Part shown: positions 11,716 through 16,778 of the stretch, piece by piece
How positions within the stretch are numbered: the stretch's first letter is position 1
How the letters are laid out: each line of letters starts with the position of its first letter
NCBI GenBank assembly: GCA_021414205.1
Contig: JAIOOW010000003.1
Location: 259,370-300,364 of the forward strand
Direction of reading: 5' to 3'
DNA length: 40,995 nucleotides
Source: Candidatus Anderseniibacteriota bacterium
Lineage (GTDB): Bacteria > Patescibacteriota > Andersenbacteria > UBA10190
Program-made: the position numbers and the translations under genes
Notes under the pieces: model-generated
The model's input: only the letters and a program-made list of their open reading frames with translations
Database searches by the model: none
Told to the model about the DNA's origin: nothing

Positions 11716-12816
11716 ATGCAAACGCTCTTTAATCGCATTGCATGGTTTCGAATGGAACAATATTTGTTGCGTCACAAATTGTGTCGAATTGCTATAGCGG
11801 GAACATATGGGAGGACGCTTGTGGCGCATATGGCGTATAACGCGATGCGACAACATCGGCATGTGAGATTGGGGTACGCGGTAGAAGATGTATCAGATAT
11901 TCCGCTGGGCGTACTTGGACGCGATCACGAGACGGAGCATGGAAATATCATTACGTTTTTGACGGGCGTGTGGCAAAGAGAATTGCACGAGAAAGAGCCT
12001 GATACGATTATTACGGAATTGCCGGTATTGCAGCCTGGCTTTATCCCATATGCTGCGTCGAAAATTCTTCCGAATATAGTTGTAATGCATCATATTGTGA
12101 CATTCGAAGAAGAATATCGCGATGCGCTCAAGTATCTTGCGCGCGATGTTGTCATTATTGCAAATGCGGATGATGAGGTCGTTATGGATGTAGTGCGGGA
12201 ATCGGATCTGAAAATTATTACCTATGGCAGGAGTAAGGATGCGGATATTAGGATTGCGCGAACAGTGCGTGGGGATGCGCAAACGGGGATTTTTATTACT
12301 ATTCATGCGCACGGCGTTGATCATGAATTATTTTTGCCAAACTTGTTTGTAAAAGAACATGTATCCGCGTTTGCATGCGCATTAGCATGTGCGTATGCCA
12401 CGAAGATTCCAATTCCAGAGGCAATGCGCGGAATTCAACACATGGTACTTCCGGAGGGTGCTTTACGAAAGCGAGAGGGAGAGCGTGGCGAGACAATTAT
12501 TTCTGAATATGTTGAATGTGTAGATCAGATGCTGGAATCCATGAAGTCATTCCAGGCATTGCCGCATGCTGGCAGAAAGATAGTTATGTTACAAGATATT
12601 GTGCCTATGGGCGCGCAAGACTGTGAGCGCATCGGCGAGCAGCTAACTAAGTCAGCTACGTTAATAGTCTTCATCGGGAAGGCCATGCGCCAGGTTCAAG
12701 ATGTTGTGCATAGATCAGGCGAGAAGATAGACACCCACTGGTTTGCTACGCGCAGCGAGGCGGTGGCGTGGCTTAGTCCTCATATAACGGGTAGCGACAT
12801 GATTCTGGACATATAG
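11716..12816 (+). CDS. MurF-like Mur ligase homologue with altered P-loop
   Basis: IAIAGTYGRTLVAH in place of GTxGKT; central PDTIITELP...; dcw position after ftsI; LPEGALRKREGERGETIISEYVECVDQMLESMKSFQALP region. Start after the ftsI stop. Confidence 0.6.
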   Translation: MQTLFNRIAWFRMEQYLLRHKLCRIAIAGTYGRTLVAHMAYNAMRQHRHVRLGYAVEDVSDIPLGVLGRDHETEHGNIITFLTGVWQRELHEKEPDTIITELPVLQPGFIPYAASKILPNIVVMHHIVTFEEEYRDALKYLARDVVIIANADDEVVMDVVRESDLKIITYGRSKDADIRIARTVRGDAQTGIFITIHAHGVDHELFLPNLFVKEHVSAFACALACAYATKIPIPEAMRGIQHMVLPEGALRKREGERGETIISEYVECVDQMLESMKSFQALPHAGRKIVMLQDIVPMGAQDCERIGEQLTKSATLIVFIGKAMRQVQDVVHRSGEKIDTHWFATRSEAVAWLSPHITGSDMILDI

Positions 12817-12834
12817 AGTAAAACCCTTTATAAA
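12806..12834 (+). promoter_or_regulatory. Predicted promoter of tRNA-Glu, TGGACA-17-TATAAA
   Basis: Hexamers at 12806-12811 and 12829-12834, 8 nt before the mature tRNA 5' end. Confidence 0.5.
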
Positions 12835-12842
12835 CAATCCAT

Positions 12843-12914
12843 GGCTCCATCGTCTAACGGCTAGGACATAGCCTTCTCAAGGCTAAGATAGGGGTTCGAT
12901 TCCCCTTGGAGCTA
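12843..12914 (+). tRNA. tRNA-Glu (CTC)
   Basis: GGCTCCA/TGGAGCT acceptor (G1-U72 wobble), anticodon stem TAGCC/GGCTA with loop TTCTCAA, T-arm GGGGTTCGATTCCCC; CCA not encoded. Confidence 0.93.
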
Positions 12915-12919
12915 CACGT

Positions 12920-15409
12920 ATGATAAAAGATCGGACGCTCGTATATGTCGTATTGATTGTTTGTATCTTTTTTGTAACCAAGTGGACATTTCAGGGTGCA
13001 TATTTTTTAAAGGACTTGGTAATTAATACTATTCCGCTTGAGAATTTGTACGGACAGATACAACGTGCAGGGCAGTCGCCACTGTGGGCCCCTGAATTAG
13101 CAGGCGGATACCCGCTACTGGCAAGTGCGCAATTGGATTTTTGGTATCCGCCGCATATGATTCTTCGTCAGTTTTTACCTGGAGTGTGGACATTAAATAT
13201 CTCTCTTCTTTTGCATGCATTACTCGCTGCAATAGGAACATTTCTCTTTTTAAAATATAACAAACTTACGAGCATTGCCGCAGGCATGGCAGCGGTGTTA
13301 TTTCCGTTCGGAGCTACATTCGTTGGGAAGTATTCGTCGCTTAATTTAGTGTTGCCATTCATGTGGGCGCCGCTGCTTTTTCTTTTGCTGCAATTGTTTA
13401 TGGAGCAAGGAAGACTCAAATATTTTACGATGTGGGTCGGCGCTACTGCGTTATGTATTCTCGTTGGGCATCCCCAAATGGCACTTTATGTATTAATGAG
13501 TGAAGTGTTATTTATAGGCTGTCTCACTGCGTATTCGTGGGATAGATGGAAAAGAGCAGTGGGAGCGCAGTTAGGAATTGTGCTGGCGATCGCCATGTGT
13601 TCGTTTTATCTGTTGCCGATCATTTATAATATACCAGATACGGATCGTGCCACAGGCACACTTCATGCAAATGCTGTCGGGATGTTTGATTATCAATTTA
13701 CCCCCAAAGCTTTTTTGGGTTTGGTGTTACCGCATCCATTTGGGCATGATGGGGCGTATCGTGGGCCCACGAATGAAAGCGAACTTTCCTCTTACCTTGG
13801 GCCAATTGTCGTATTATTGGCATTCCTAGGAATATGCACTAGCAGGCGAAAATTTCCGGCGGTGTGGCTAGTATCCGTTGTTTTGATAGTTGTAGGGCTT
13901 ACGCTTGCGATAGGTGGGTATTCGCCGGTATTTCGGTGGCTTGTTGCGCATGGATTCAACTATTTTAACGCTCCGAGTCGTTTCTTTTTTTATGTTGATA
14001 TCGGGCTAGTTTTTTTTGCTGCTGCCGGATTAGATTTTTTCAGAAGTTTTGCAAAGCCATGGTTGGCGCTGGCAGCTGTATTGCCGGTCCTATGGGTTGG
14101 CTGGGGCTGGCATCAAGGCGTGCCGTGGGAATTTACTCAGGAGCCGGCAATGGTGCGATTGTTGCAAGGGCAGGGATTCGCGAGAATTTTTTCTGGAGAT
14201 ACTATTGCCGAGAATGCTCCTGATAATGATTTTGGTATTAAAGCATATAATTTGATTTGTGATACATGCGTGTATCGACAAACATTTGTGTCGCCATTTG
14301 ATCGTATAAATGGTATTGCGATACAGGTTGCCAGCGTTCATATAGGCACTGGAACTTTGAAGCTTACACTATATGACGGCAGTGGTAAGAAACTTCGCGA
14401 AGCAATAATAGGAAATAAGGATCTTGTTGATAGTCAATGGAATACTGTTCCGTTTCAGGTAGTAGAACATGCGCAAGGTCAATCGTTTTATTTCGAAATC
14501 AGGTCTGATATGCCGCGTATTCAAGCTCCTCGACTTTTAATTCATACCAATCCAAATCAGCAGTATGATCCGAGCGGCAGATTGTATAATTGCATTAAAG
14601 CTGGATGCCTTGAAGTAAAAAACTATGATGCAGCTTTTAAAATTATTGCTTCTTCTCAAGCGGTTTCGTATTACGATGCACTCGCCCCGTATGTTTCAGC
14701 TGGCTTCGGTATAGGCACGATGCAATGGGCAGGATCATTACCGATAGGTGTAGTAAAAGAATATTTAAAACCGCTTGGTACCTGGGGAGATCCATGGGGC
14801 CCAGGAGCGCGAGCTATCATTAATAGATTTGCCACTACGCATTTTATTGGAATATTCCCGCCATACCGATATGCAGAAAGTTTAAATGGCACATCGTATA
14901 TCTCTAGTGTGCCGATCGGTGATCAATTTTTACGGTTATATCGAAATGACGAAGCGTTTCCTCGTGTACAGTTTGTGCAAACAGTGAAAGCATTATCGGA
15001 TACAACGGATCAAATAAATACGATTATGAAATTGCCAGCTACCGATCAAAAAACGGTAGTAGCTGACGTTCCTAGTGATGCAGTATTTTCTCTAAGCGGT
15101 AATGCGGCACATCTTATACAAGATGGGCGCACAAAAGTAATTATTCAAACACAGCAAGATAGTGATGGGTTTTTGGTATTGCGCGACTTATTGCTCAAAG
15201 ACTGGACCGCGACAATAGACGGTCATCCCGCGCACATATATCGTGTGGACGGGCTGTTTCGAGGAATAGAAGTTTCCGCTGGGTCTCATGTTATTTCTTT
15301 TGAATATAAACCTCGATGGATTGGCCTTGCGGTGTGGTCATTAGGTATATCGCTAAGTATATTTTTGATCCTCGCGTGGATTTCAATAAAAAAGAAAACC
15401 GGACGGTGA
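12920..15409 (+). CDS. YfhO-family polytopic membrane protein
   Basis: LWAPELAGGYPLLASAQLDFWYPP, multiple TM helices, C-terminal LLLKDWTATIDGHPAHIYRVDGLFRGIEVSAGSHVISFEYKP. Confidence 0.8.
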   Translation: MIKDRTLVYVVLIVCIFFVTKWTFQGAYFLKDLVINTIPLENLYGQIQRAGQSPLWAPELAGGYPLLASAQLDFWYPPHMILRQFLPGVWTLNISLLLHALLAAIGTFLFLKYNKLTSIAAGMAAVLFPFGATFVGKYSSLNLVLPFMWAPLLFLLLQLFMEQGRLKYFTMWVGATALCILVGHPQMALYVLMSEVLFIGCLTAYSWDRWKRAVGAQLGIVLAIAMCSFYLLPIIYNIPDTDRATGTLHANAVGMFDYQFTPKAFLGLVLPHPFGHDGAYRGPTNESELSSYLGPIVVLLAFLGICTSRRKFPAVWLVSVVLIVVGLTLAIGGYSPVFRWLVAHGFNYFNAPSRFFFYVDIGLVFFAAAGLDFFRSFAKPWLALAAVLPVLWVGWGWHQGVPWEFTQEPAMVRLLQGQGFARIFSGDTIAENAPDNDFGIKAYNLICDTCVYRQTFVSPFDRINGIAIQVASVHIGTGTLKLTLYDGSGKKLREAIIGNKDLVDSQWNTVPFQVVEHAQGQSFYFEIRSDMPRIQAPRLLIHTNPNQQYDPSGRLYNCIKAGCLEVKNYDAAFKIIASSQAVSYYDALAPYVSAGFGIGTMQWAGSLPIGVVKEYLKPLGTWGDPWGPGARAIINRFATTHFIGIFPPYRYAESLNGTSYISSVPIGDQFLRLYRNDEAFPRVQFVQTVKALSDTTDQINTIMKLPATDQKTVVADVPSDAVFSLSGNAAHLIQDGRTKVIIQTQQDSDGFLVLRDLLLKDWTATIDGHPAHIYRVDGLFRGIEVSAGSHVISFEYKPRWIGLAVWSLGISLSIFLILAWISIKKKTGR

Positions 15410-15428
15410 GGTCCGGGGTTGGAATTGA

Positions 15429-15872
15429 TTATGTTGTTTTTCTGGCAATTGAGAGGCTGTCGCTGTTTCTGAGGATCGTTACTTCGTCGCGAGTGATTAT
15501 GATATAGCTGATGTGCGTTGCGTTTTCTTTGAGATCGCAATCGGCGGGGATTTCAGCATTCATTTCGTACATGAGCACAGAAGATTCATCAACAGTCGTT
15601 GTTAGGTCTGTGCCCCAATATGCGTATACTCGATAGGTTACGGTAGTTGCGGAGGTTCTTTGGCACAGAACCCACCCAATGCCCCCGCAATTAAGACACG
15701 CGCACTTTTTCGTAGCCACGGTCTCAGTTGATGCATTGGTAATCTGATGTTCGATATAAGAGTCTCTAGAGCGAACAAGGAGGAGGATTGTTGGCGGTCG
15801 TTCTCTGTCTGGGAGTTGTGGATAGAGCGATTCAAGTGGAGGGAATTCTGTTTGGGGAGTGAGGAGTGTCAC
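15429..15872 (-). CDS. Hypothetical protein with Cys cluster (CACLNCGGIGWVLC)
   Basis: GTG start at 15872 preferred, with SD AAAGGA; the longer GTG at 15935 would start inside a palindrome. Confidence 0.55.
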   Translation of the reverse strand: MTLLTPQTEFPPLESLYPQLPDRERPPTILLLVRSRDSYIEHQITNASTETVATKKCACLNCGGIGWVLCQRTSATTVTYRVYAYWGTDLTTTVDESSVLMYEMNAEIPADCDLKENATHISYIIITRDEVTILRNSDSLSIARKTT

Positions 15873-15922
15873 GTCGCGATTCCTTTCTTTTTGTATGTAA
15901 TTGGAGAGAACAATTTGAGCAA

Positions 15923-15952
15923 AAAAATAACCCACATATGTGGGTTATTTTT
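15923..15952 (-). terminator. Perfect 30-bp palindrome with A/T tracts (intrinsic-terminator/attenuator-like)
   Basis: AAAAATAACCCACAT|ATGTGGGTTATTTTT; lies in the 5' region of the minus-strand gene. Confidence 0.7.
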
Positions 15953-15983
15953 GAAACGATATTTGTTTCTTGCGTTTTTGCAT
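15945..15983 (-). CDS. Candidate 12-aa leader peptide MQKRKKQISFQK
   Basis: ATG at 15983, TAA at 15947-15945 inside the palindrome; promoter TTGACA (16018-16013)-16-TATGAT (15996-15991) with 7 nt from -10 to ATG. Confidence 0.35.
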   Translation of the reverse strand: MQKRKKQISFQK

Positions 15984-16152
15984 CTGAATTATCATACACC
16001 TGCAATATAGAATGTCAAAACATACTACCTGCAGGTAATGGAAATATGGTTGCAAATAGCTTGCTGATATGGTACAGACATAGAGCGGAAAACTAGCAAA
16101 GGGCTAGGAATACGACAGCTCTTTTGGGAATACTGATAACGGAGATAGCTCA

Positions 16153-16605
16153 ATGTCTAAGCAATCGGAATGCGAAGTTCGCGAACTGCGCCTAGGGGAC
16201 TTGGTGCCGGGAAGTGGTTTTTTCGAAACTCTTACTCATCTGCGCAAGGATCCTAAGATTGATTACGATCGGATGATTGAAATCTTTCAAAAGCGGGCTG
16301 AGCACGGAGTCGTTACCTACGTCATCGTGGTTAACGAGAGGATTGTTTCAACTACTTCAATTGTGTTTGAGTATAAGTTCATCCACAATGGCGGGCTCAT
16401 TGCTCACGTGGAGGATGTAGCTACGCGAGAAGGGGCCGAGTACGAAAAGCATGGCTATGCAAGCATGCTGCTCCAAAAAGCCATCGCTCTTGCGAAAGAG
16501 CGAGGAGCTTACAAGCTCATCCTTGATTGTAGCTGGACTAATGTGATCTTTTACGTCAAGCAAGGCTTACGGCCCATCGAAGTTTGTATGCGCATCGATC
16601 TCTGA
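16153..16605 (+). CDS. GNAT acetyltransferase, GNA1-like (glucosamine-phosphate N-acetyltransferase type)
   Basis: EYKFIHNGGLIAHVEDVATREGAEYEKHGYASMLLQKAIALAKERGAYKLILDCSWTNVIFYVKQGLRPIEVCMRI; SD GGAG. Confidence 0.75.
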   Translation: MSKQSECEVRELRLGDLVPGSGFFETLTHLRKDPKIDYDRMIEIFQKRAEHGVVTYVIVVNERIVSTTSIVFEYKFIHNGGLIAHVEDVATREGAEYEKHGYASMLLQKAIALAKERGAYKLILDCSWTNVIFYVKQGLRPIEVCMRIDL

Positions 16606-16614
16606 GGATGCGAC

Positions 16615-16655
16615 AAGCGCCCCCGCGCGTGAAAACATGCGGGGCTTTTTTATTT
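16615..16655 (+). terminator. Rho-independent terminator
   Basis: CCCCGC...GCGGGGCTTTTTT. Confidence 0.75.
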
Positions 16656-16778
16656 TTAAAATTTGTCAGATTTTATTTACACATAAAATTGAAAATACAT
16701 GAAGAAAATATGAAGTAGTGCTATTATTATACAAACGCACTATATGCACACCGCGAATATCGAAGGAGGTGAGTGGAT

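Follow-up and report, generated by a model that had tools for sequence, protein, structure and literature searches.

A candidate leader terminator, possibly sensitive to translation, ahead of a lineage-specific Patescibacteria gene

A perfect palindrome lies between a Cys-cluster orphan gene and a divergently oriented GNA1-like acetyltransferase gene in this 0.91-Mb patescibacterial genome (4 contigs). With about even confidence, we read it from the sequence as an intrinsic terminator close to the promoter, within the 5' leader of the orphan, a lineage-specific gene, and as one that is possibly sensitive to translation. The narrower proposal that translation of a leaderless 12-codon mini-ORF in this leader controls readthrough is tentative, and we consider such true translational control rather unlikely. 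If it were true, the locus would represent a highly compact switch that senses ribosomes, in a lineage whose sequence signals point to leaderless starts for many genes; the literature searched yielded no experiments on regulation through leaders in such reduced genomes. Even without a genuine switch, widespread leaderless starts are documented here for the family, and a conserved leader-terminator candidate, better than the present locus, was identified 5' of an RlpA-like gene. Coordinates without a prefix refer to the window, that is, the whole stretch of 40,995 nucleotides analyzed (C3:259370-300364; Table 1), while statistics of a genome-wide type (terminators, promoters, and starts) were computed on 400 kb of contig C3.

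Table 1. Features of the locus and its surroundings, in window coordinates
Feature	Position	Strand	Details
tRNA	12843-12914		
YfhO-like membrane protein	12920-15409	+	
Terminator-like hairpin CCGGACCTCACCGTCCGG-TTTTCTTTTT with T tract	15399-15416	-	Directly 3' of orphan gene
Orphan gene	15429-15872	-	GTG start, 147 aa, Cys cluster
Cys cluster CACLNCGGIGWVLC	15663-15704	-	Within orphan gene
Shine-Dalgarno sequence of orphan gene	15881-15886	-	AAAGGA
T7 tract	15921-15927	-	Minus-strand terminator
Perfect 30-bp palindrome AAAAATAACCCACATATGTGGGTTATTTTT	15923-15952	both	13-bp stem, ATAT loop
T5 tract	15948-15952	+	Plus-strand side of palindrome
Leaderless 12-codon ORF MQKRKKQISFQK	15945-15983	-	ATG 15983-15981, TAA 15947-15945
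Predicted transcription start	15984-15985	-	From promoter spacing; ~7 nt past -10 box, 1-2 nt 5' of ATG
Sigma-70 type promoter TTGACA-16-TATGAT	15991-16018	-	Consensus match 11/12
-35 hexamer TTGACA	16018-16013	-	Spacer 16 nt
-10 hexamer TATGAT	15996-15991	-	
GNA1-like acetyltransferase (GNAT)	16153-16605	+	Divergent from orphan gene; compositionally atypical
DUF4383 gene	from 16773	+	
Superoxide dismutase	from 17274	+	

A terminator-like palindrome between divergent genes

An earlier note on this DNA, made from the letters alone, had described a strong minus-strand promoter followed after 7 nt by an ATG, and a perfect 30-bp palindrome with a T tract whose 5' arm holds a TAA; each of these elements is present. 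Promoters matching the consensus this well exceed chance, with 22 sites in the 400 kb compared with 4-9 in random sequence, and 20 of the 22 are intergenic. Just one perfect palindrome in the 400 kb is longer than the present one, which makes up 30 of the 96 bases of the stretch that had been singled out. Folding of the leader RNA gave a z score of -4.2, and the hairpin core reached -13.6 kcal/mol (about -16 kcal/mol with the full 13-bp stem). Among the genome's terminators, this core energy takes ranks 46-47 of 51, inside their range but close to its weak end. On the minus strand, the predicted G+C-containing hairpin is followed by a U tract, which is the form of an intrinsic terminator, and, provided that the orphan gene is real, it stands between a promoter and a gene. 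Transcripts from the promoter would be expected to meet the palindrome ~35-65 nt after their start; many would end there as an RNA of ~65 nt, and those reading through would serve as the orphan mRNA, translated from its SD-led GTG.

The position of the palindrome is exceptional among the terminators of this genome. Scanning the 400 kb returned 51 strand hits, nearly all 1-35 nt past the stop of a gene on the same strand, and the palindrome is the only hit flanked by divergent genes. The gene table used for terminator positions included ORFs of at least 75 codons, after which several apparently antisense terminators fell at gene ends. With these ORFs included, the palindrome is classed as lying inside a gene solely because of a 76-codon plus-strand ORF (15866-16096), which overlaps the start of the orphan and was judged spurious. 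Searches of the locus against Rfam leader and sRNA families gave nothing near the gathering threshold; matches to sRNA families below it were judged to be generic terminator matches.

An ordinary bidirectional insulating terminator, with the orphan gene (if real) using another promoter, is a substantial minority possibility. On the plus strand, it would keep antisense read-through that originates at the YfhO-like gene from reaching the GNA1-like gene; on the minus strand, it would end an independent short RNA or 12-codon micro-gene. Several of the genome's terminators are bidirectional hairpins of this A-rich, GC, and T-rich make-up, the YfhO-like stop is not followed by a T-rich terminator on the plus strand, and a hairpin 1-35 nt past the stop, or overlapping it, is the usual gene end in this genome, as it is for the mini-ORF; the weak coding signal of the orphan, given below, points the same way. 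A 26-bp palindrome of the same pattern on a viral contig, judged to be unrelated, likewise occupies an ordinary gene-end terminator position, just past a gene stop and among co-directional genes. However, the plus-strand site would lie ~510 nt past the YfhO-like stop, far outside the common 1-35 nt, the minus strand has the better T tract (7 versus 5), and the stretch between the palindrome and the GTG holds no good alternative promoter.

Perfect dyad symmetry through the centre and a location between divergent genes would also suit an operator in the DNA, bound by a regulator that acts on both genes, although this is improbable: the palindrome is unique in the genome, its core occurring nowhere else, which excludes a repeat and makes a shared operator unlikely. 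Moreover, no regulator gene is adjacent, and the A-rich arm, GC core, and T tract match the make-up of the genome's terminators.

A candidate leaderless mini-ORF and its possible role in readthrough

All elements of the leaderless 12-codon ORF claimed earlier were found, with its stop in the 5' arm of the palindrome. Its ATG follows the -10 hexamer by 7 nt with no Shine-Dalgarno sequence, a spacing that coincides with the genome's peak of leaderless starts. TANNNT ~10-12 bp 5' of a start is a published sign of leaderless (TA-led) genes (PMC3160421). In the 400 kb, the motif stands 6-8 nt 5' of the start in 104 of 393 genes, where ~25 would be expected, peaking by position at 46, 35, and 23 genes against ~8 per position; about a quarter of predicted starts thus carry it. 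Relatives (L053-L061) show the same leaderless peak, with 22 of 100 ORFs at spacing 6 compared with ~2. Where strong promoters of the 400 kb have an ATG at 5-8 nt, 7 of 11 begin a predicted gene at that ATG. Because of the rare divergent terminator context, this leaderless signal, and the matching spacing, the combination of a leader terminator with a translatable leaderless mini-ORF is credible. Although the mini-ORF fits the TANNNT peak of the present genome as TA-led genes would, the latter are full genes (PMC3160421), whereas the mini-ORF, at 12 codons, terminates inside a hairpin of terminator type.

With promoter and hairpin held fixed, an ATG 6-8 nt past the -10 box opening an ORF that ends in the arm arose in 0.8% of simulated leaders, or in 2.0% when GTG and TTG starts were allowed for the mini-ORF, both figures being post hoc and uncorrected. 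The codon usage of the mini-ORF gives no coding signal (-0.60 per codon in frame), a score in which 12 codons say little. Four Lys and three Gln codons among the 12 fall in an A-rich stretch and form no run, and an in-frame ATG upstream (15995) would give a 16-codon version. Another ORF of atypical composition (C3:314273-314896, plus strand) has TTGACA-18-AATAAT, a 25-codon ORF at leaderless spacing, and an AAAGGA Shine-Dalgarno sequence ahead of its probable ATG.

The geometry of the leader would place this short ORF for control of the hairpin by a ribosome. With the UAA in the A site, the footprint of a ribosome would extend over approximately 15962-15935, the entire 5' arm, and when this footprint was masked in folding, the hairpin was lost (-25.6 to -7.5 kcal/mol). 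Since masking at the UAA removes the hairpin, translation leading to readthrough is the ribosome-dependent direction that the anatomy allows. As a leaderless message, the mini-ORF can probably be entered by ribosomes; one that reaches its stop would favor readthrough by covering the arm, so expression of the orphan may hinge on ongoing translation. The ribosome-masking attenuation proposed in the earlier note is in this way partly upheld: the terminator form, the leader site, the leaderless spacing, and the arm-covering footprint speak for it, but neither an antiterminator, a regulatory codon run, nor a codon-usage signal was found in the leader. Specifically, the leader offers no pairing partner for the CCCAC arm and hence lacks an antiterminator of the classical kind. 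What could be left is a minimal attenuator, in which a terminating ribosome alone, with no antiterminator RNA, would couple a lineage-specific gene to leaderless 70S translation; we regard this as a doubtful, if possible, arrangement.

Known systems resemble the locus in part. Both ilvB1 and whiB7 of Mycobacterium tuberculosis are upstream-ORF attenuators combining a short upstream ORF with a terminator (PMC13236596), and as in such trp/ilv-type attenuators, a promoter, a short ORF, a hairpin with a U tract, and the gene's own start follow one another here. As in these systems, too, a ribosome footprint of ~26 nt would decide whether the hairpin forms. ilvB1 is described with an alternative antiterminator hairpin and a regulatory codon run (PMC13236596); at the present locus neither was seen, and direct masking at the stop codon is the one option. 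Mycobacterial leaderless polycysteine short ORFs upstream of genes, as they are cited in PMC13236596 and PMC9031893, are reported to control those genes and share with the present case a leaderless short ORF 5' of a gene, whereas our mini-ORF has no cysteine codons; moreover, these cases are described as translation attenuation rather than termination (PMC13236596). We have classed the locus under a familiar type of element, intrinsic terminators located in leaders, and not among ribosome-mediated attenuators, because the antiterminator is absent and no relative examined has the gene or region.

The note had also raised the alternative that the TAA is an in-frame nonsense codon or readthrough stop, to which may be added its arrival through insertion of the palindrome into a leaderless gene that was formerly longer; the mini-ORF is indeed in frame with the orphan, no further stop intervenes, and 30 bp is a multiple of three, but the mini-ORF and the 24 codons from TAA to GTG (-0.14 per codon) both score as non-coding and the GTG has its own Shine-Dalgarno sequence, making this very improbable. 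To our knowledge, no Patescibacteria reassign TAA.

The orphan gene and its neighborhood

The gene that the putative terminator would control starts, as described earlier, with a GTG behind an AAAGGA Shine-Dalgarno sequence and encodes an orphan Cys-cluster protein. Its coding score is weak, with 0.05 per codon being lower than the 5th percentile for genes of similar size and slightly above the 99th percentile for shadow ORFs. In a comparison of frames, the ORF past the GTG scored weakly as coding in its own frame alone (+0.016 per codon; others -0.51 and -0.36). A terminator-like hairpin of its own right after the stop, overlapping the end of the YfhO-like gene, supports the orphan as a real minus-strand transcription unit. 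No homologues were detected in Pfam, PHROGs, NCBIfam, PDB, 380 genomes of the phylum, GTDB contigs, IMG/VR, or phages. An AlphaFold model of the protein made without an alignment had a mean pLDDT of 37.9 and was left unused. The Cys cluster contains CxxCxGxG, which resembles a single repeat from the zinc-binding region of DnaJ, with no family match.

The divergent neighbor matches solved GNA1-type glucosamine-6-phosphate N-acetyltransferases (E 1.6e-14), and a relative that is 37% identical, in a distant genome (G032), adjoins a putative glmS-like ORF. The GNA1-like gene was not found in the 12 closest genomes, and it is as atypical in composition as the orphan. In a genome of the same genus (G001), the interval from the Mur-ligase-like gene to the DUF4383 gene is occupied by different genes; this interval (12816-16773 in the window) is variable. 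Given the atypical composition, the absence from the nearest genomes, and the other genes present in G001, the orphan and GNA1-like pair in this interval was probably acquired. The whole region has no counterpart in 13 genomes, and DNA matches in relatives were short and at chance level.

A conserved candidate leader terminator ahead of an RlpA-like gene

A second leader terminator was observed elsewhere on the contig (C3:106334-106409, minus strand), 65 nt 5' of an RlpA/DPBB-domain gene (C3:105664-106281, minus strand; DPBB_1 E 2.1e-6, with bits slightly below the Pfam cut-off). Here, a promoter is followed within ~10 nt by a hairpin and U6. Like the palindrome described above, it combines a strong promoter with a hairpin and U tract at ~65 nt from the gene. 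In contrast to the present locus, which occurs in one genome and has no match to the model of the RlpA-like leader terminator (R1), it is found in 8 genomes with paired stem changes, and has no mini-ORF. As a candidate leader attenuator or tiny RNA, it surpasses the mini-ORF and orphan locus, showing the look of a selected leader terminator in this lineage, a kind of support that the present locus does not have.

Seven relatives share the promoter and the hairpin (GCCTRAYAG...CTRTYAGGC-TTTTTTGTTG), and the genes 3' of the terminator are homologous in the seven genomes compared. Model R1 was built from six rows, among which two pairs of the stem are changed on both sides. The element has no Rfam match. 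Within the family, R1 matches at 50-90 bits in 8 genomes, and the more distant matches, which score 24-36 bits, probably reflect promoter-terminator pairs of a generic kind.
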